Source of the DNA: an uncultured Rhodospirillales bacterium
GTDB taxonomy: Bacteria > Pseudomonadota > Alphaproteobacteria > Acetobacterales > Acetobacteraceae
Direction: 5' to 3'
NCBI GenBank assembly: GCA_903843125.1
Contig: CAIMOR010000407.1
Location: forward strand, 31,153-95,152
Length of the DNA stretch: 64,000 nucleotides
Shown: positions 14,094 to 22,341 of the stretch, piece by piece
Numbering within the stretch: the first letter of the stretch is position 1
Layout of the letters: the number at the start of each line of letters is the position of its first letter
Position numbers and translations under genes: made by a program
The notes under the pieces: generated by a model
The model's database searches: none
What the model was told of the DNA's origin: nothing
Seen by the model: only the letters and a program-made list of their open reading frames with translations

Positions 14094-14199
14094 TATTGCC
14101 GCCAGCCTACACGCGGTGCCGGGGCGCGTGCAAGGGCTGGCTGTCACGCCGCCGGGCTTGCTCCGCCATGGCTTTGCGCGCATTAGGCAGCCCATCGAG

Positions 14200-15441
14200 A
14201 TGGTTTTCTCCGGGGTGGCGGACGTGCCTGACCAATCGCGCCCGGGCGCAGTTGCGCCGCCGATCCTCTTGCTGGCCTTCGACCGCCCGGAGCTGCTGGC
14301 GCAGGTGTTGGAAAGCCTGGCCGCGCAGCAACCCAAGCTCGACCCGGCCCGGATAAATCTGTTCCTCGACGGCGCCTACTGTCCCTACCGCGACGCGCTG
14401 GTGGCCGACCCGGTTGCGGTGGACCACGCCGCGTTGGTGTTCCGCCGCCTCTGCCCCGGCGGCCGGTTGCACCGCGCACCGCAGAACCTCGGCGTTGCGT
14501 TCAACTATGACCGCGCGGAGCGCTTCGCCTTCGTCGAGCAGGACGCGCCGGTGGCCTACTTCTTCGAGGACGACCTGGTGCTCTCGCCGTTCTACCTGGC
14601 AACGCTGGACCGGCTGGCCGCGCTGGCCGTGGCGGAGCCGCGCGTGGCCTATGTCGGCGCCTGTGGCGACCATCGGTTGGACGTGGCGGCGCAGCGCGAC
14701 CGGTTGGGCTGCCTGCAGCCAATGGAGCACATGTGGGGCTACGCCATGACGCGACGCCACTGGCTTGAACGCCAGCCGGTGTTGGCGCCGTACCTGGACC
14801 TGCTGCGCGGCTGCAACTACCGCGACCGGCCGCACCAGCAGATACTGGAGCATTGGTGGCGCCAGGGCGCCGGCGTCTCGGTCTCCTCGCAGGATGGCGC
14901 GAAGCTGGCGACCTGCCAGTTGCTGGGCAGGATGCGGTTGTCGACCGTGGCGGTGCTGGCGCGCAACATCGGCGAGGTCGGCCTGCATTTCTCGCCCGAG
15001 GGCTACCGCGCCGCCGGCTTCCACCTGACGCAATGCTACCCGGCCGAGGCGCCGCTTGCGGACATCGAACTGCCCGACGACGCCGCGCTGGAAGCGATGC
15101 TGGCGGCCGAACAGGCCCTGGCGGCCGAACGCCGCGGCGTGCCGGCGCCGCTGCGGCCGGCCTGGCCGGCGCAGCCCTTGCCGCTGGACGCTGTCGGCCT
15201 GGTGCGGCTGCTGTATCGGACGCTGCTTGAGCGGGACCCCGACGACGCCGGCCTGGCGGCCCATGCCGAGTTGCTGGAGACGGGGCAATCCGACCCGGCG
15301 CAGGTGATCCAGGGGTTCCTTGATTCCTCTGAGTTTCGCGACGTTCTTGGCAACCGGGGATGGGTCCGTGCCGAACTCAGCCGCGGCGCCGCGGCGCCGG
15401 CCAGCGTCGGCGGCGGGCAGGTCGCCGGCCAGCGCGGGTGA
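14200..15441 (+). CDS. GT2-like glycosyltransferase with C-terminal DUF4214-like domain
   Basis: PPILLLAFDRPELLAQVLESLAAQQ, VAYFFEDDLVLSPFYL, then C-terminal LVRLLYRTLLERDPDDAGLAAHAELLETGQSDPAQVIQGFLDSSEFRD resembling DUF4214. Start chosen at ATG 14200. Confidence 0.75.
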   Translation: MVFSGVADVPDQSRPGAVAPPILLLAFDRPELLAQVLESLAAQQPKLDPARINLFLDGAYCPYRDALVADPVAVDHAALVFRRLCPGGRLHRAPQNLGVAFNYDRAERFAFVEQDAPVAYFFEDDLVLSPFYLATLDRLAALAVAEPRVAYVGACGDHRLDVAAQRDRLGCLQPMEHMWGYAMTRRHWLERQPVLAPYLDLLRGCNYRDRPHQQILEHWWRQGAGVSVSSQDGAKLATCQLLGRMRLSTVAVLARNIGEVGLHFSPEGYRAAGFHLTQCYPAEAPLADIELPDDAALEAMLAAEQALAAERRGVPAPLRPAWPAQPLPLDAVGLVRLLYRTLLERDPDDAGLAAHAELLETGQSDPAQVIQGFLDSSEFRDVLGNRGWVRAELSRGAAAPASVGGGQVAGQRG

Positions 15442-15499: not shown

Positions 15500-16459
15500 A
15501 TGCCCGTGACGCGCGAAGATGTCGTGATGGCCTATCGCTACATCCTGGGGCGAGAGCCCGAGGGCGAGGCGACGATCGCCGGGCATGTGCAGAACACGCC
15601 GGACCTGCTGACGATGCGGATGAACTTCCTCGGCTCGGAGGAGGCGCAACGCATCGTCAATCCGGTGCAACTGCCGCCCAGCCTGCCGCTGGATGCACCG
15701 CCGCTGGAGGTGGAGACCACCGCGGACCGCGCGACGCTGACCCAACTGGTCGGCTTTACCGGGCGCTATTGGGAGGAGATCGGCCGCACCGCGCCGCACT
15801 GGTCGGTGCTGACCGACCCGAACTACAAGCCTGAGGCGATCGCGCAGCACGAGGCGGCGTTCTTCGAGACCGGGCGCGGTGATGCCGAGCTGCTGCTGGC
15901 GCTGCTGCGGCGGATCGGCAGGGCACCCGAGGAGTTTGCCTGCTGCGCTGAATACGGCTGCGGTGTCGGCCGCATCACCACCCACCTGGCGCAGCATTTT
16001 CCGCGTGTGCAGGCGCTGGACATCTCCCGCCCGCATCTGGATCTGGCGGCGGCGACGCTGCGGCGGTTCGGCCAGGGCAACATCGAATTCCACCAGGTCA
16101 CGCCGGCCGATGTGCATCCGGCACAGGGCTTCGACCTCTGGTACAGCCGCATCGTGCTGCAGCACAATCCGCCGCCGATCATCATGCACATCCTGGACCG
16201 CGTGTTCCGCCTGCTGGAGCCTGGCGGCGTCGCCGCGTTTCAGGTGCCGACGTATCGCGTCGGCTATCGCTTCAGCATCGCCGACTACCTGGCGCGCGAC
16301 CCCGGCGGCAGCATGGAGGTGCATGTGGTGCCGCAGCGCGCGGTGCTGGAACTGGCCTGGAAGCACCGGCTGCGGCTGGCCGACATCCGCGAGGATACCG
16401 CCGTGGTGGACGACAGCCCGAACTGGCTCTCGAACACCTTCGTGTTCTGCAAGGACTGA
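15500..16459 (+). CDS. Class I SAM-dependent methyltransferase with N-terminal DUF4214-like segment
   Basis: MAYRYILGREPEGEATIAGHVQNTPDLLTMRMNFLGSEEAQ then FACCAEYGCGVGRITTHLAQHFPRVQALDISRPHLDLA (Rossmann MTase motif I). Confidence 0.82.
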   Translation: MPVTREDVVMAYRYILGREPEGEATIAGHVQNTPDLLTMRMNFLGSEEAQRIVNPVQLPPSLPLDAPPLEVETTADRATLTQLVGFTGRYWEEIGRTAPHWSVLTDPNYKPEAIAQHEAAFFETGRGDAELLLALLRRIGRAPEEFACCAEYGCGVGRITTHLAQHFPRVQALDISRPHLDLAAATLRRFGQGNIEFHQVTPADVHPAQGFDLWYSRIVLQHNPPPIIMHILDRVFRLLEPGGVAAFQVPTYRVGYRFSIADYLARDPGGSMEVHVVPQRAVLELAWKHRLRLADIREDTAVVDDSPNWLSNTFVFCKD

Positions 16460-16614: not shown

Positions 16615-18993
16615 CTACTCGCCGTAGATCTCCAGCCGTTGCAGCCGGCCGGTGAAATTGCTGCCGTTGAACAGCCGCACCTCCAGCTGGGTCAAGGATT
16701 GCTCGGCACCGAAGGTCAGGCTGGCGCCGCCCTGCAGCCTGGCGGCGGAAACCGGCACCTGCGCCAGCACGCGATTGCCGGTCTCCACGCTCACGTCCAT
16801 CACCGCGCGGCCATGCGCCACGTCGCCCCCGGCGAAGTGCAGGCAGGCGCGGTAGCGGCCCGGCGGCAGGTCGATGTACGGGCCGAACAGCGCGGTGCCG
16901 GACGCGGCGTTGGCGAACCGGATGCCGCCGGCGTCACGCAGGCCGCTGATGGTATGCAGGCGTGGGTCATTCGCGTCGAGGCTGGCGACCAGCGTGGTCA
17001 GCTGCGCGGCTTCGGCATCAGCCGGGCCAAGGTCGCCGGAATCCTCCACCAGGCCCAGCGCGACCCAGGGTTGGGTTTCCGAATTGCCCTCGCCGGAAAG
17101 CCGCGCGGTCAGCACCTCCAACGCGCCGCCTTCGCGCGGCACCAGGGAGCGCCGCAGCTGCTGGCGCAGCAGGGCCTCATAGATTTCCAGCTTGTGCTCA
17201 TGGCGGGCCAGGATCTCGGTGGTGGCCTGGTGGGTCGACTGGCGCAGCAGCTTGAACAGGCGGATCGTCAGCCCGGCACAGAAATTCCAGTACGCATGCG
17301 GGTTCAGGCGCTGGCCGTGCTCGTTGGTCCAATGCACCGTCAGCACGTCCTGCTTGCGCATGTCGCCGAGCTCGACCGCGGTGGTCTCGACGCGATAGGC
17401 CTCCAGGCCACGGTCGATGCTGGTGATGAAGGCCGGGTCCTCCAGCACCGGCAGCGCCCGCACCAGCGCCAGCAGGGCGGCGCTGTGGCAATCGACGAAG
17501 GGCGAGACGCAACTGCGCTGCCCCATCAGGAAGGCGCTTTCCTGGTTGCCGTCCGGGCCGGCGAAGTGCCGCTCGAAGTCGAACAGCACGCGCACGGCCT
17601 CGCGCAGGGCATCCTTGTAGGGCTGTTCGCCGGTCGCGATCGCCATGTCGATCAGGCCGTAGATGACGAAGGCCAGGGGGCGCGAGAAGATCGCCGCCGG
17701 GTCGTTGAAATGGCGCGCGAGGAACACGTCGGCGTAGACCTGATAGTAGCGGTCGAACAGCGCGCGGGCGCGGTCGCGCAGCGCCGTCACCTCGGCTGAG
17801 GCTGGCAGGCCGGCCAGCGTGCGGTAGCAGCGGGCGAAGGCGTTGATCTCGGCGCCGTAGTCGTAGGAGATGGAGATGTCGACCGGCTGCAGGCTGGGCG
17901 TCGCGGCACGGCGCTGCACCAGGCCGGCGCAATCCGCCACCTGGTCGTAGAAGCCGCCGGCGGTGAGGATCTTCCGCTCACCGGCCACGATCCGGGCGCC
18001 GCCCTGGTGCACCCCGGGGAAGCGGTGGCGCGAGGTGACGCGATGCAGGCGGCCGGCATCCTGCACCACCACGTCCAGCTCGTGCATCGCCGCGGCGGTG
18101 TCGGGCAGGGTGTGGATGGCCAGGGCAAAGCCTCGCATCTCGTGGCGCTGCGACAGCATCCAGTAGTCGGCGCCGTGGCAGTCCAGCCGGGTCTCGCCGG
18201 TCTCGGCGGCGGCAAAGGAAAGCGGCGCGGCCCCGGGGCGGCTGATGCCGATGTCGTGGTAGCTGACCGCGTTCTCGTTGTGGCTCAGCTGGTCATGGCC
18301 GAAGCCGAGGGTGACATCGGCCACGCTGATGCCGGGGTCCAGCTCCAGCGCCAACTCGGTGGCCACGAACATGCTGCGGCCACTGAAGCGGAAGCCGGCG
18401 GTCAGCCGGCCGAGGCGACGGGGGCCGGTGCCGGGGTCGAAGTGCAACTCGTGCGCGTGGCTCAGGTGCAGGTCCAGCCCATCGTGCCGGATGGCGTGCG
18501 CGGTGGCCTGGCCCTCCACCACCAGGCGGAAGGGCAGACCCTGGAAGCTGAACGCCACCTGGTGGCGGCCGAGGATCAGGTTCCGCGCGGTGCGGATATC
18601 GTGGAAGCGCATGCCGACGGTGACGCTGCCGTTCGGCAGGTCGCAGCTCAGGTGCATGAAGGTATGCGCCCAGCGGCCGGTACCGTCGCCGCGCTCGCGC
18701 TCCTCCAGCCGCGGATGCCCGGTGCGGCGCAGGATGAAGGGGCCGTCGCACAGCGTCTCGATGAACGCCAGCACCTCGCGGCAGCGGTCCGGCCAGCGTT
18801 GCCACAACGCCGGCAGGGCCAGGAACTCCAGCACCTTGGCGTTGTCGTCGGCCCAGAACCAACGGTCACCGTCCACCGCGTGCTCGGTCTCGGCGACGGC
18901 CATCGCCGGGCCACCCTCCGGCTCCACCCGTTGCATCAGGTAGCGCATGATGAACTCGGCGTAGGGAACGGGGTCGGTCGGCAGCTCGATCAT
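16615..18993 (-). CDS. Large uncharacterised protein (792 aa), putative glycan-active alpha/alpha-toroid with C-terminal beta-sandwich
   Basis: Single long ORF; no signal peptide; long helical central part rich in aromatic/His residues and C-terminal GRYRACLHFAGG...LTQLEVRLFNGSNFTGRLQRLEIYG typical of beta-sandwich/CBM-like domains. Confidence 0.7.
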   Translation of the reverse strand: MIELPTDPVPYAEFIMRYLMQRVEPEGGPAMAVAETEHAVDGDRWFWADDNAKVLEFLALPALWQRWPDRCREVLAFIETLCDGPFILRRTGHPRLEERERGDGTGRWAHTFMHLSCDLPNGSVTVGMRFHDIRTARNLILGRHQVAFSFQGLPFRLVVEGQATAHAIRHDGLDLHLSHAHELHFDPGTGPRRLGRLTAGFRFSGRSMFVATELALELDPGISVADVTLGFGHDQLSHNENAVSYHDIGISRPGAAPLSFAAAETGETRLDCHGADYWMLSQRHEMRGFALAIHTLPDTAAAMHELDVVVQDAGRLHRVTSRHRFPGVHQGGARIVAGERKILTAGGFYDQVADCAGLVQRRAATPSLQPVDISISYDYGAEINAFARCYRTLAGLPASAEVTALRDRARALFDRYYQVYADVFLARHFNDPAAIFSRPLAFVIYGLIDMAIATGEQPYKDALREAVRVLFDFERHFAGPDGNQESAFLMGQRSCVSPFVDCHSAALLALVRALPVLEDPAFITSIDRGLEAYRVETTAVELGDMRKQDVLTVHWTNEHGQRLNPHAYWNFCAGLTIRLFKLLRQSTHQATTEILARHEHKLEIYEALLRQQLRRSLVPREGGALEVLTARLSGEGNSETQPWVALGLVEDSGDLGPADAEAAQLTTLVASLDANDPRLHTISGLRDAGGIRFANAASGTALFGPYIDLPPGRYRACLHFAGGDVAHGRAVMDVSVETGNRVLAQVPVSAARLQGGASLTFGAEQSLTQLEVRLFNGSNFTGRLQRLEIYGE

Positions 18994-19068
18994 GGCGGCA
19001 TAGAGCGCAGCGGCCGGCGAGGCGTCAACCGCCGGGGGAAGGCGGCAGGCCGGGCCGGCCGGCCGAGG

Positions 19069-19656
19069 CTAGACGGCGCGACGGGAGCGGAGCGCGGCGG
19101 TCAGGGTGCCTTCGTCCAGCAGGTCCAGCGTGCCGCCCATGGGCACGCCCTGCGCCAGCCGGGTCACCGGCACCCCGGTCGGGCGCAGCCGGTCGGTCAG
19201 GTAGTGCACGGTGGTCGCGCCATCCACGGTGGCCGGCAGGGCCAGGATCACCTCCTCGATGCCGCCGGCCTCGATGCGGGCCAGCAGCGGCTGCACCGAA
19301 AGGTCCTCGGGCCCGATGCCGCCGAGCGCCGAGAGCGTGCCGCCCAGCACGTGGTAAAGCCCGCGATGCGCATTGGCGCGTTCCAGCGCCCAGAGGTCGG
19401 CAACGCCCTCGACCACGCAGACCAGGCCGCGGTCGCGGTGGCTGTCGCGGCAGATGCCGCAGGGCGTGCGGGTGTCCAGGTTGCCGCAGGTCGGGCAGGG
19501 GCGGACGGCGGCGGCGGTCTCCCGCAATGCCTCGGCCAGCGGCAGCATGGTCTGGTCCGGGTGCATCAGCATCTTCAGCACGGCGCGGCGCGCACTGCGC
19601 CGGCCGAAGCCGGGCAGTTTCGCCAGCAGGCCAACGAGATGCTCGATGGGGTCCAT
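19069..19656 (-). CDS. recR: Recombination mediator protein RecR
   Basis: IEHLVGLLAKLPGFGRRSARRAVLKML, CPTCGNLDTRTPCGIC zinc finger, VCVVEGVADLWALE Toprim domain. Confidence 0.97.
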   Translation of the reverse strand: MDPIEHLVGLLAKLPGFGRRSARRAVLKMLMHPDQTMLPLAEALRETAAAVRPCPTCGNLDTRTPCGICRDSHRDRGLVCVVEGVADLWALERANAHRGLYHVLGGTLSALGGIGPEDLSVQPLLARIEAGGIEEVILALPATVDGATTVHYLTDRLRPTGVPVTRLAQGVPMGGTLDLLDEGTLTAALRSRRAV

Positions 19657-19660
19657 CAGG

Positions 19661-20002
19661 TCAGAACGGCAGCTTCAGGCCGCCGAGACCACCGAGGCCG
19701 CCCGGGATGTTCATGCCGGCGGTGGCCTTCTGCATTTCCTCGGCCATCATCGCCTCCACCTTCTGCTTGGCATCGGCATGGGCGGCCAGCAGCAGGTCCT
19801 CCAGCACCTCGCGGTCGTCGGCCACCATCAGGCTGGGGTCGATCGAGACCGCCTTCAGGTCGCCCTTGCCGGACAGGGTGACCTTGACCATGCCGCCGCC
19901 GGCCTGGCCCTGCATGGTCGCGGCCTCCAGCGTGGCCTGCATCTCGGCCATGCGGGTCTGCATCTGCTGGGCCTGCTTCATCATGTTGGCCAAGTTCTTC
20001 AT
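19661..20002 (-). CDS. ybaB: YbaB/EbfC family nucleoid-associated protein
   Basis: [59 protein letters not shown]; dnaX-ybaB-recR order. Confidence 0.95.
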
Positions 20003-20047: not shown

Positions 20048-22018
20048 CTAGAAGTCATCGAGATCGACCGGCTCGGCCTCGGGCGGCGCGAATTCCGGCA
20101 TGTCCTCAGGCAGCGTATCGGGCTCGGGTTCCGCGGCAACGACGGTCGGGGCGGCCAGGCCGTAGGCGTCGGTACCCTCGTCGCGCACCGCCTGGATGCT
20201 TGCACCGGGGAAGGCGGCCAGGATCGCCTGCACCAGCGGGTGGCTGGCGGCCAGGTCGCGGCGGGAAGCCTCGGCCAGCTTGCCCTGTTCGGCCAGGGTC
20301 GGCTCGCCATCGGCATTAGAGAGGGCGATGGTCCAGCGCTGCTCCGTCACCTCGGCCAGCAGGGCGGTCAGCTGCGCCGCCAGGTCGCGCGGCGCGGCGG
20401 CCAGCACGCGTATCTCCAGCCGGCCGGGCGCCACCTTCACGGGATGCACGTGGTAGAGCAAATGGGAGTGCAGCAGCGGCCGGCGGCCGGATGCCAGCGC
20501 CACCACCTGCTGCCAGCTCTGCGGCTGGGCGACGGCCGGGACCGCGACCGCCATGGTCATGCCGCCATTGGCCACGGCCCTGGCGCCGCCTCCCCCGCCA
20601 TTGGGGGTAGGGCGAGAGGCGCTGGCGGCGGCGGCGCCGCCTTCCAGCAGGCGCTTCACCAGGTCGCCCGGCGTCGGCATCTCCGCCACATGGGCCAGGC
20701 GGATCAGCACCATCTCGGCGGCGGCCCGGCGGTCCGGCGCCTCGTTCACCTCGCCCAGCCCCTTCAGCAGCATCTGCCAGGCGCGGCCCAGGCTGGCGAC
20801 GCTGAGCTTGTGTGCCAATGCCGCACCGCGGGTGCGCTCCACTTCGGTCAGCGCGGGGTCGTCCCGCAGCGCCGGCACGCTGACCAGGCGGGTCAGCGTA
20901 TGGGTCAGGTCGAGCAGATCGGCCAGCACCACGCCGGGGTCGGCGCCCTGTTCATGGCCGCGGTCCATCAGGCTGAGCGCGGTGGCGGTGTCGCCGGCCA
21001 TCAGCGCTTCCATCAGGTCCAGCACCAGGGAGCGATCCGCCAGGCCCAGCATGTCTCGCACCAGCAGGGCGGAAACCTGGCCGCCCGGCCCTGCCAGCGC
21101 GATAGCCTGGTCGAGCAGCGAAAGCCCGTCGCGCACGCTGCCATCCGCGGCGCGGGCGACCATGGCCAGTGCTTCCGGTTCGGCGTCCACCGCTTCCTTG
21201 GCGCAGATGCGGGCGAAGTGGTCGCGCAGCTCCGCCTGGGGCACGCGCTTCAGGTGGAAGGTCTGGCAGCGGCTGAGAATGGTCGCCGGCACCTTGCGGA
21301 TCTCGGTGGTGGCGAACAGGAACTTGACGTGCGGTGGCGGCTCCTCCAGCGTCTTCAGCAAGGCGTTGAATGCCTGGTTCGAGAGCATGTGCACTTCGTC
21401 GAGGATATAGACCTTGAACCGCGCCTGGGCCGGCCGGTAGCGCACCGCCTCCCGCAGCTCGCGCACGTTGTCCACGCCGTTGTTGCTGGCGGCGTCCAAC
21501 TCCTGCACGTCCGGGTGGCGGTCGGCGAGGATCGCCTTGCACTCGGCGCAGACGCCGCAGGGGTCGGCGGTCGGGCCGCCTGTGCCATCGGGGCCGACGC
21601 AGTTCAGCGCGCGGGCGATGATGCGCGCCGTCGTGGTCTTGCCGACGCCACGGACGCCGGTGAGCATGAAGGCGTGCGCGACGCGGCCCTGGGCGAAGGC
21701 GTTCTTCAGCGTGCGGACCAGGGCCTCCTGGCCGATCAGGTCGGCGAAGCTTGAAGGCCGATACTTGCGCGCCAGCACGCGATAGGGCGTGGCCGGCAGG
21801 GCGGCTTCCGGCATGGCGGCGGGCGCGGCAAGGACTGGCGCCGCGGTCATGGTCGCTGCCGGCGCCGGCGAGGGTTCGCCGAACAGGCCGGGGCCTTCGG
21901 GGGTGGGTGGCTGGGGCAGCGGCTCCGGCGCGCCGAACAGGCCAGGGCCATCAGGGGCGGGCGGCTCAGGCAAGGCGTCCGGGGCTTCCGGGTCCTGGCC
22001 GAACATGGTGTCGGTCAT
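20048..22018 (-). CDS. dnaX: DNA polymerase III subunit gamma/tau
   Basis: YRVLARKYRPSSFADLIGQEALVRTLKNAFAQGRVAHAFMLTGVRGVGKTTTARIIARALNC; zinc motif; DEVHMLSNQAFNALLKTLEEPP. Start chosen at MTDTMFGQDPEAP (22018), after the SRP RNA. Confidence 0.93.
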   Translation of the reverse strand: MTDTMFGQDPEAPDALPEPPAPDGPGLFGAPEPLPQPPTPEGPGLFGEPSPAPAATMTAAPVLAAPAAMPEAALPATPYRVLARKYRPSSFADLIGQEALVRTLKNAFAQGRVAHAFMLTGVRGVGKTTTARIIARALNCVGPDGTGGPTADPCGVCAECKAILADRHPDVQELDAASNNGVDNVRELREAVRYRPAQARFKVYILDEVHMLSNQAFNALLKTLEEPPPHVKFLFATTEIRKVPATILSRCQTFHLKRVPQAELRDHFARICAKEAVDAEPEALAMVARAADGSVRDGLSLLDQAIALAGPGGQVSALLVRDMLGLADRSLVLDLMEALMAGDTATALSLMDRGHEQGADPGVVLADLLDLTHTLTRLVSVPALRDDPALTEVERTRGAALAHKLSVASLGRAWQMLLKGLGEVNEAPDRRAAAEMVLIRLAHVAEMPTPGDLVKRLLEGGAAAASASRPTPNGGGGGARAVANGGMTMAVAVPAVAQPQSWQQVVALASGRRPLLHSHLLYHVHPVKVAPGRLEIRVLAAAPRDLAAQLTALLAEVTEQRWTIALSNADGEPTLAEQGKLAEASRRDLAASHPLVQAILAAFPGASIQAVRDEGTDAYGLAAPTVVAAEPEPDTLPEDMPEFAPPEAEPVDLDDF

Positions 22019-22061
22019 GGGGTGCGGCCTCGGCGCTGGGCGGCGCCAGCCGCCGGGGAGG

Positions 22062-22162
22062 GTGGAAGGCCGACAAGCGACCCGAGCGAGAACCCGTTGC
22101 GGCTGCTTCCTTCCGGACCTGACCGGGTTGGCGAGGAGCCCGTCCACCGCCGACCTTCCGGG
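22062..22162 (-). ncRNA. ffs: Signal recognition particle RNA (small bacterial 4.5S type); ends approximate
   Basis: Minus strand contains the conserved SRP core GGTCAGGTCCGGAAGGAAGCAGCC (22101-22124), flanked by pairing arms GGAAGG...CCTTCC (22154-22159 with 22064-22069). Confidence 0.88.
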
Positions 22163-22227: not shown

Positions 22228-22341
22228 TTGCCGCCCAGCGGCACGGGGCAAGGTTGCCGCCCAGCGGCACGGGGCAAGGTTGCCGCCCAGCGGCACGGGG
22301 CAAGGTTGCCGCCCAGCGGCACGGGGCAAGGTTGCCGCCAG
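22228..22341. repeat. 26-bp tandem repeat, about 4 near-perfect copies
   Basis: ttgccgcccagcggcacggggcaagg starts at 22228, 22254, 22280, 22306 and 22332 (last truncated). Each unit holds a GCCGC-CCA-GCGGC hairpin. Period 26 is not a multiple of 3. Confidence 0.93.

Follow-up and report, generated by a model that had tools for sequence, protein, structure and literature searches.

Introduction

Betafuselloviruses, archaeal viruses of hot-spring archaeal hosts, carry a virion tail spike named VP4. Virions of Sulfolobus spindle-shaped virus 19 (SSV19) hydrolyse their host's N-glycan, an activity attributed by the authors to an endo-mannanase-like domain of VP4, a protein that was not purified and could not be produced in recombinant form (PMC12042106). 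They claimed that this domain is similar to a Bacteroides endo-mannanase (PMC12042106). In the GH116 beta-glucosidase TxGH116, the GH94 and GH65 phosphorylases and GH63, a beta-supersandwich is followed by an alpha/alpha toroid. The Bacteroides enzyme likened to VP4 is presumably the GH76 endo-alpha-mannanase, which also belongs to a toroid enzyme class.

Here, we analyzed a stretch of 64,000 nucleotides from an uncultured Rhodospirillales bacterium (hereafter the window) and describe a gene whose product belongs to a new, previously unnamed family of probable glycan-active enzymes.

Results

A conserved gene adjacent to recR

The gene spans positions 16615..18993 of the minus strand (792 codons, ATG start). 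It starts 75 nt after recR (19069-19656), its upstream neighbor here and in related loci, which is itself preceded by ybaB (19661-20002) and dnaX (20048-22147 or longer), all consecutive on the minus strand. The ORF, its distance from recR and its orientation shared with dnaX-ybaB-recR had been correctly described in the original prediction, which also called the protein an orphan. Indeed, neither Pfam nor NCBIfam matched any family, and a single-sequence search of PDB returned no match up to E 10. The gene is present in five of the six genomes of the genus, where orthologues share 78-81% identity with the window protein, with dN of ~0.13-0.15 and dS of ~0.41-0.50 (dN/dS ~0.3). Comparison of these sequences, with dN far below dS, confirms that the ORF is a real, functional gene under purifying selection.

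The gene is chromosomal, and tblastn against phages and plasmids returned no match, hence no sign that it is a phage or plasmid gene. PADLOC matched no anti-phage defence model to the protein. No signal peptide was seen, and an N-terminal hydrophobic segment is absent.

A perfect 26-bp tandem repeat of 4.3 copies (TTGCCGCCCAGCGGCACGGGGCAAGG) was observed at 22228-22339, between dnaX and a divergent NUDIX-like gene. As this repeat falls inside the mechanical 773-codon dnaX ORF, the start codon of dnaX is probably located downstream of it.

A consensus promoter scan alone revealed nothing, and it was the comparison of orthologues that brought out a probable promoter (TTGACG-N18-TCTATG, 18999..19028, minus strand) ending 5 nt before the ATG. 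The distance from TTGAC to the start codon is exactly 35 or 36 nt in the window and in loci L002-L004, L006 and L007, both Belnapia genomes included. In these loci, a -10-like hexamer ends 5-7 nt before the start and much of the spacer between recR and the gene has diverged. In L005, the TTGAC element lies further upstream. Within the interval from 50 to 21 nt upstream of the start, TTGAC is present in 7 of the 24 family members where shuffling predicts 0.3; related rows are not independent in this count. The conserved spacing suggests that in the window's genus and in Belnapia the gene is probably transcribed as a leaderless mRNA from its own promoter, and probably not expressed by read-through from recR only.

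Two clades with distinct neighborhoods

Genome searches gathered a family set of 24 rows. The core of ~655 aa (~residues 1-655; 17029..18993, minus strand), which comprises an N-terminal helical hairpin, a beta-supersandwich and an alpha/alpha toroid, is present in all of them. Of 200 genomes sampled from the window's bacterial family, 20 have this core and 5 others match the C-terminal module alone; outside this bacterial family, the core occurs in Roseibium hamelinense. Protein and profile searches of a class sample (385 genomes) and of phylum samples (299-399 genomes) returned nothing beyond the window's own genome. Identity among members goes down to 24%, and phylogenetic analysis separated two deep clades of 16 and 8 rows (support 100/100). 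The larger one includes the window, Belnapia, Roseibium and others, and most of its rows sit behind recR. N-terminal extensions that make distant members up to 1033 aa long and look like fusions were, on inspection, interpreted as over-extended GC-rich frames.

In the window, the gene converges on two plus-strand genes. The nearest (15500..16459; cluster c4) encodes a SAM methyltransferase (Pfam Methyltransf_25, E 7e-14). The next (14116..15441) encodes a DUF4214-containing protein (E 4e-9) that may be a GT-A glycosyltransferase. The convergence on a glycosyltransferase/methyltransferase pair that had been noted earlier thus holds for the arrangement and for the methyltransferase; the glycosyltransferase identity comes from a GT-A-like EDD motif read by eye, Pfam detecting DUF4214 only. 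Downstream of the gene, recR-type loci carry the c4 methyltransferase, WcbI, a polysaccharide pyruvyl transferase or FkbM methyltransferases, and a polysaccharide-export protein is also among the neighbors in the close clade. The c4 gene adjoins the Roseibium gene too (26% identity), divergent rather than convergent, and its presence there in another arrangement argues for a functional link.

The Roseibium locus (L010, 6952-9971), with the gene and the divergent c4-type methyltransferase, looks like a joint transfer of the pair. We also observed that DUF4214 is attached, at either protein end, to different surface-glycan proteins beside the gene, namely the putative glycosyltransferase, WcbI and an FkbM methyltransferase (window 14116-15441, L031 10225-11277 and L034 10149-11300).

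The neighbors in the distant clade are not glycan genes, which speaks against a glycan enzyme. Its 8 rows lie beside minCDE, named here by reading the sequences, or beside genes for a DUF2272 protein and a flavin oxidoreductase. Gene order is conserved in these loci (L023-L025, also L037-L039, and L026-L030, also L040-L044), which place the gene opposite minCDE or upstream of the DUF2272/flavin oxidoreductase genes.

A predicted beta-supersandwich and split alpha/alpha toroid

AlphaFold2, run with an 11-sequence alignment, returned a model with a pLDDT of 82 for the full protein and of 88 for the core (pTM 0.89). Three helices (residues 9-19, 48-58 and 68-80) are predicted before strands that span residues 86-344, and ten after them (352-364, 379-395, 400-428, 437-454, 457-473, 503-517, 520-531, 570-585, 589-616 and 641-648). 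The strands (17962..18738, minus strand) are predicted by AlphaFold2 and Foldseek to form a beta-supersandwich of the galactose-mutarotase/YidC/GH116-like fold, and the helices of residues 352-649 (17047..17940, minus strand) an alpha/alpha toroid. The toroid-like helices of the original prediction reappear in the model, with the correction that residues 86-344 make up a large beta-supersandwich.

The top Foldseek matches in PDB were GH116, the GH94 and GH65 phosphorylases, GH63, galactose mutarotase (GalM) and the YidC periplasmic domain (E 1e-8 to 1e-6, prob ~1, identity ~10%). Against whole GH structures, the TM-score was only ~0.2 with an rmsd of 15-19 A, so that only the fold class, a beta-supersandwich plus an alpha/alpha toroid as in GH116, GH94, GH65 and GH63, is supported by the model. 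No sequence match to these four families was found with Pfam or NCBIfam. The fold search that had been proposed earlier thus recovered the expected toroid class of glycoside hydrolases; the heparinase-like lyases named with it were not the best match.

The helices that follow the beta domain form at most five inner/outer pairs, and the total would reach six with the hairpin at residues 48-80, the site of the family's best conserved motif (WFWADDNAK). Judging from this order of helices, the toroid appears to be split, its presumed first helix pair (WFWADDNAKVLE, residues 44-80; 18754..18864, minus strand) preceding the beta domain. The beta-supersandwich would pack on the toroid.

The GH94 and GH65 matches raise the question of an inverting phosphorylase, a cytoplasmic enzyme whose arginines would bind phosphate and which would recycle oligosaccharides released by surface-glycan turnover. 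The missing signal peptide and the several invariant arginines of the family fit such an enzyme. We nevertheless regard it as unlikely, as Pfam matched neither GH65 nor GH94 and GH116 hydrolases scored slightly better; furthermore, phosphorylases are not known to have a hairpin ahead of the beta domain as is presumed here.

Sequence similarity to betafusellovirus VP4

A search of all PDB sequences with the family profile returned SSV19 VP4 (7xdi) as the best and only convincing match (E 0.003). The match consists of three colinear segments: FW(A/P)DDNAK(V/F)LE, a helix pair with TG(E/N)..Y, and NSETQPW, a motif of seven identical residues (637-643 in the window protein, 1027-1033 in VP4). The FWxDDNAKxLE hairpin is located near the N-terminus, at residues 46-56. 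The VP4 of SSV6 scored 21.8 bits against the family profile, the best of 3000 shuffles reaching 2.0 bits. Scored piecewise, the three VP4 segments gave 23.4, 16.0 and 8.2 bits; the helix of D501 was not recovered in VP4 by this sequence comparison.

Other searches pointed to the same protein. In PHROGs, the sole match of the window protein was the VP4 family (phrog_28527), at the same place and far below significance. When a VP4 profile was searched against 426 locus proteins, 20 family rows outranked all others, with weak absolute bits. Profile-profile comparison of the family with VP4 gave a probability of 72% over one helix pair of 63 columns. In the viral fold library BFVD, Foldseek matched an SSV6-type betafusellovirus end-filament/spike protein (E 7.6e-5, prob 0.75), along with proteins annotated as GH95 and GH65; 7xdi was absent among the best 50 Foldseek PDB matches listed. 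Finally, among long ORFs of 2.9 million viral contigs, FWxDDNAK occurred in fusellovirus VP4 only, and a search of the viral contigs with the family profile gave no confirmed match.

The likeness might also result from convergence on generic toroid motifs, with nothing specific to the viral spike. An N-acylglucosamine 2-epimerase was weakly matched as well in the profile search of PDB (E 2), bit scores are low, and the profile-profile match covers a single helix pair. Such convergence seems improbable given the three colinear segments with their identical seven-residue motif, the reciprocal ranking, the agreement between PHROGs and the viral fold search, and the restriction of FWxDDNAK to fusellovirus VP4. 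Taken together, the PDB profile match, the shuffles, PHROGs, the reciprocal ranking, the profile-profile comparison, the viral fold library and the motif specificity make it likely that the family and betafusellovirus VP4 are homologous, a relationship that had not been foreseen.

The shared 792-aa length with SSV1 C792 is a coincidence, as the SSV19-type spike and the VP4 of SSV1 belong to different orthologue groups (PMC9608457). In the record of SSV6, Saci1002 of Sulfolobus acidocaldarius is listed as homologous to the spike.

Candidate active-site residues at the toroid mouth

Polar residues are conserved in at least 22 of the 24 members at 25 columns, 10 of which (D49, N51, K53, D378, R438, D501, C502, W569, N637 and Q641) coincide with the beginning of one of the six presumed inner helices; no such column falls near the start of any of the five outer helices. 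The permutation p-value of 0.0007 is optimistic, since the inner/outer assignment is our own, the motifs were known beforehand and related rows are not independent. D378, R438, D501, W569, R578 and E626 are invariant within the toroid, which ends close to the NSETQPW motif. A substrate would be bound at the toroid mouth, where the conserved residues open the inner helices. Two invariant carboxylates would act in general acid/base catalysis, D378 and D501 being the candidates, with D49/D50, D372, D549 and E626 as alternatives. R89, R90, R438 and R578, invariant arginines that suggest an acidic ligand or phosphate, would bind an acidic group. By eye, E626, C502 and R438 are not visibly retained in VP4; as the D501 helix was not recovered there by sequence either, the catalytic residues are candidates only.

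An epimerase or lyase of uronic-acid glycans, similar to glucuronyl C5-epimerase or heparinase, would also combine a beta domain with an alpha/alpha toroid, and the arginines would suit a uronate. Moreover, at lower ranks the Foldseek lists contain BACCELL_00875 (5no8), a polysaccharide lyase, and a lyase of family PL26. Their rank below GH116, GH94, GH65 and GH63, the lack of any Pfam lyase or epimerase match, and the finding that none of the columns conserved throughout the 24 members is a Tyr or a His, residues expected of such lyases, make this activity quite improbable.

D49 and D50 are each missing from part of the distant clade. This loss, the patchy distribution of the family and its fusion to a likely binding module could be expected of a non-catalytic scaffold with a degenerate toroid, which would bind glycan or sense its length within the polysaccharide machinery. 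We consider such a role rather doubtful because the polar residues at the pocket mouth are strongly conserved in members sharing as little as a quarter of their residues.

A mobile C-terminal module

Residues 656-792 (16618..17028, minus strand) form a module of 137 aa that, within the family, is confined to the window's genus; the contig of L008 ends in this region. A beta-sandwich is predicted at residues 700-791 with low confidence. The C-terminal beta-sandwich of the original prediction was thus upheld as a prediction and found on other proteins, and turned out to be a dispensable, genus-restricted addition to the core. In genomes elsewhere in the bacterial family, modules ~24-45% identical to it are carried by SAM methyltransferases, a GT4-type glycosyltransferase, a hydrolase-like protein and Gly_transf_sug glycosyltransferases, the last with two or three copies (L057, L058). 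Two of these methyltransferases are encoded immediately after a family member, next to a polysaccharide-export protein. In glycosyltransferases and methyltransferases, the module follows the GT or methyltransferase domain, sometimes in tandem copies. Residues 656-792 alone matched no Pfam family and no known CBM. The module probably acts in glycan binding or docking, and its presence marks enzymes of surface glycans in these bacteria. Its motif, GPYI.LPPGRYRA ... EVRLF, was observed in the window and in L051-L058, L032 and L036.

Discussion

The GH fold class predicted for the protein, its surface-glycan neighbors and the C-terminal module shared with glycosyltransferases and with methyltransferases of sugar loci support the glycan-processing role proposed originally. 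The original prediction was largely right, to which the viral link, the mobile module and the promoter are new additions. We favor, as the reading with the better chance, a cytoplasmic carbohydrate-active enzyme that would act on a glycan, perhaps acidic, or on an intermediate of a bacterial surface polysaccharide. It would be a hydrolase or a phosphorylase in surface-polysaccharide metabolism. Against a glycan enzyme stands the absence of any match to a GH Pfam domain. Furthermore, the site of action of VP4 is extracellular, in contrast to a bacterial protein in which no signal peptide was seen, and the activity of VP4 was deduced from whole virions. This orphan family has now gained a fold class, an evolutionary anchor and candidate active-site residues, which makes it testable.

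The family shares ~10% identity with GH116, GH94, GH65 and GH63, and seems to differ from them in that one hairpin of the toroid precedes the beta domain. GH76 is linked to it through VP4 only: its Pfam profile gave no match, it was not among the Foldseek matches listed, and conservation of the D49-D50 pair, the candidate for a GH76-type catalytic Asp-Asp pair, breaks down in the distant clade. The VP4 proteins of SSV19 (7xdi), SSV6 (B1232) and ASV1 (A1231) come closer. They share with the family the FWxDDNAKxLE hairpin followed by FI(K/R)R, a large beta insertion, the helix pair with TG(E/N)xxY and then NSETQPW close to the toroid end. VP4 differs by its size (~1232 aa), hydrophobic segments at both ends, extra beta insertions and its function as a virion spike encoded by a virus genome; the bacterial protein has neither the N-terminal hydrophobic segment nor the viral context of a tail spike, and instead consists of a ~655-aa core encoded in chromosomal glycan neighborhoods. 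We tentatively propose that this split-toroid carbohydrate-active family may be the cellular counterpart of the betafusellovirus spike, with a glycan-cleaving enzyme common to both. If so, the virion version would attack the coat of the host, and the bacterial version would build or edit the cell's own surface coat from inside. Catalysis by VP4 is an attribution, and the smaller, soluble bacterial proteins may offer relatives of the spike that are easier to express.
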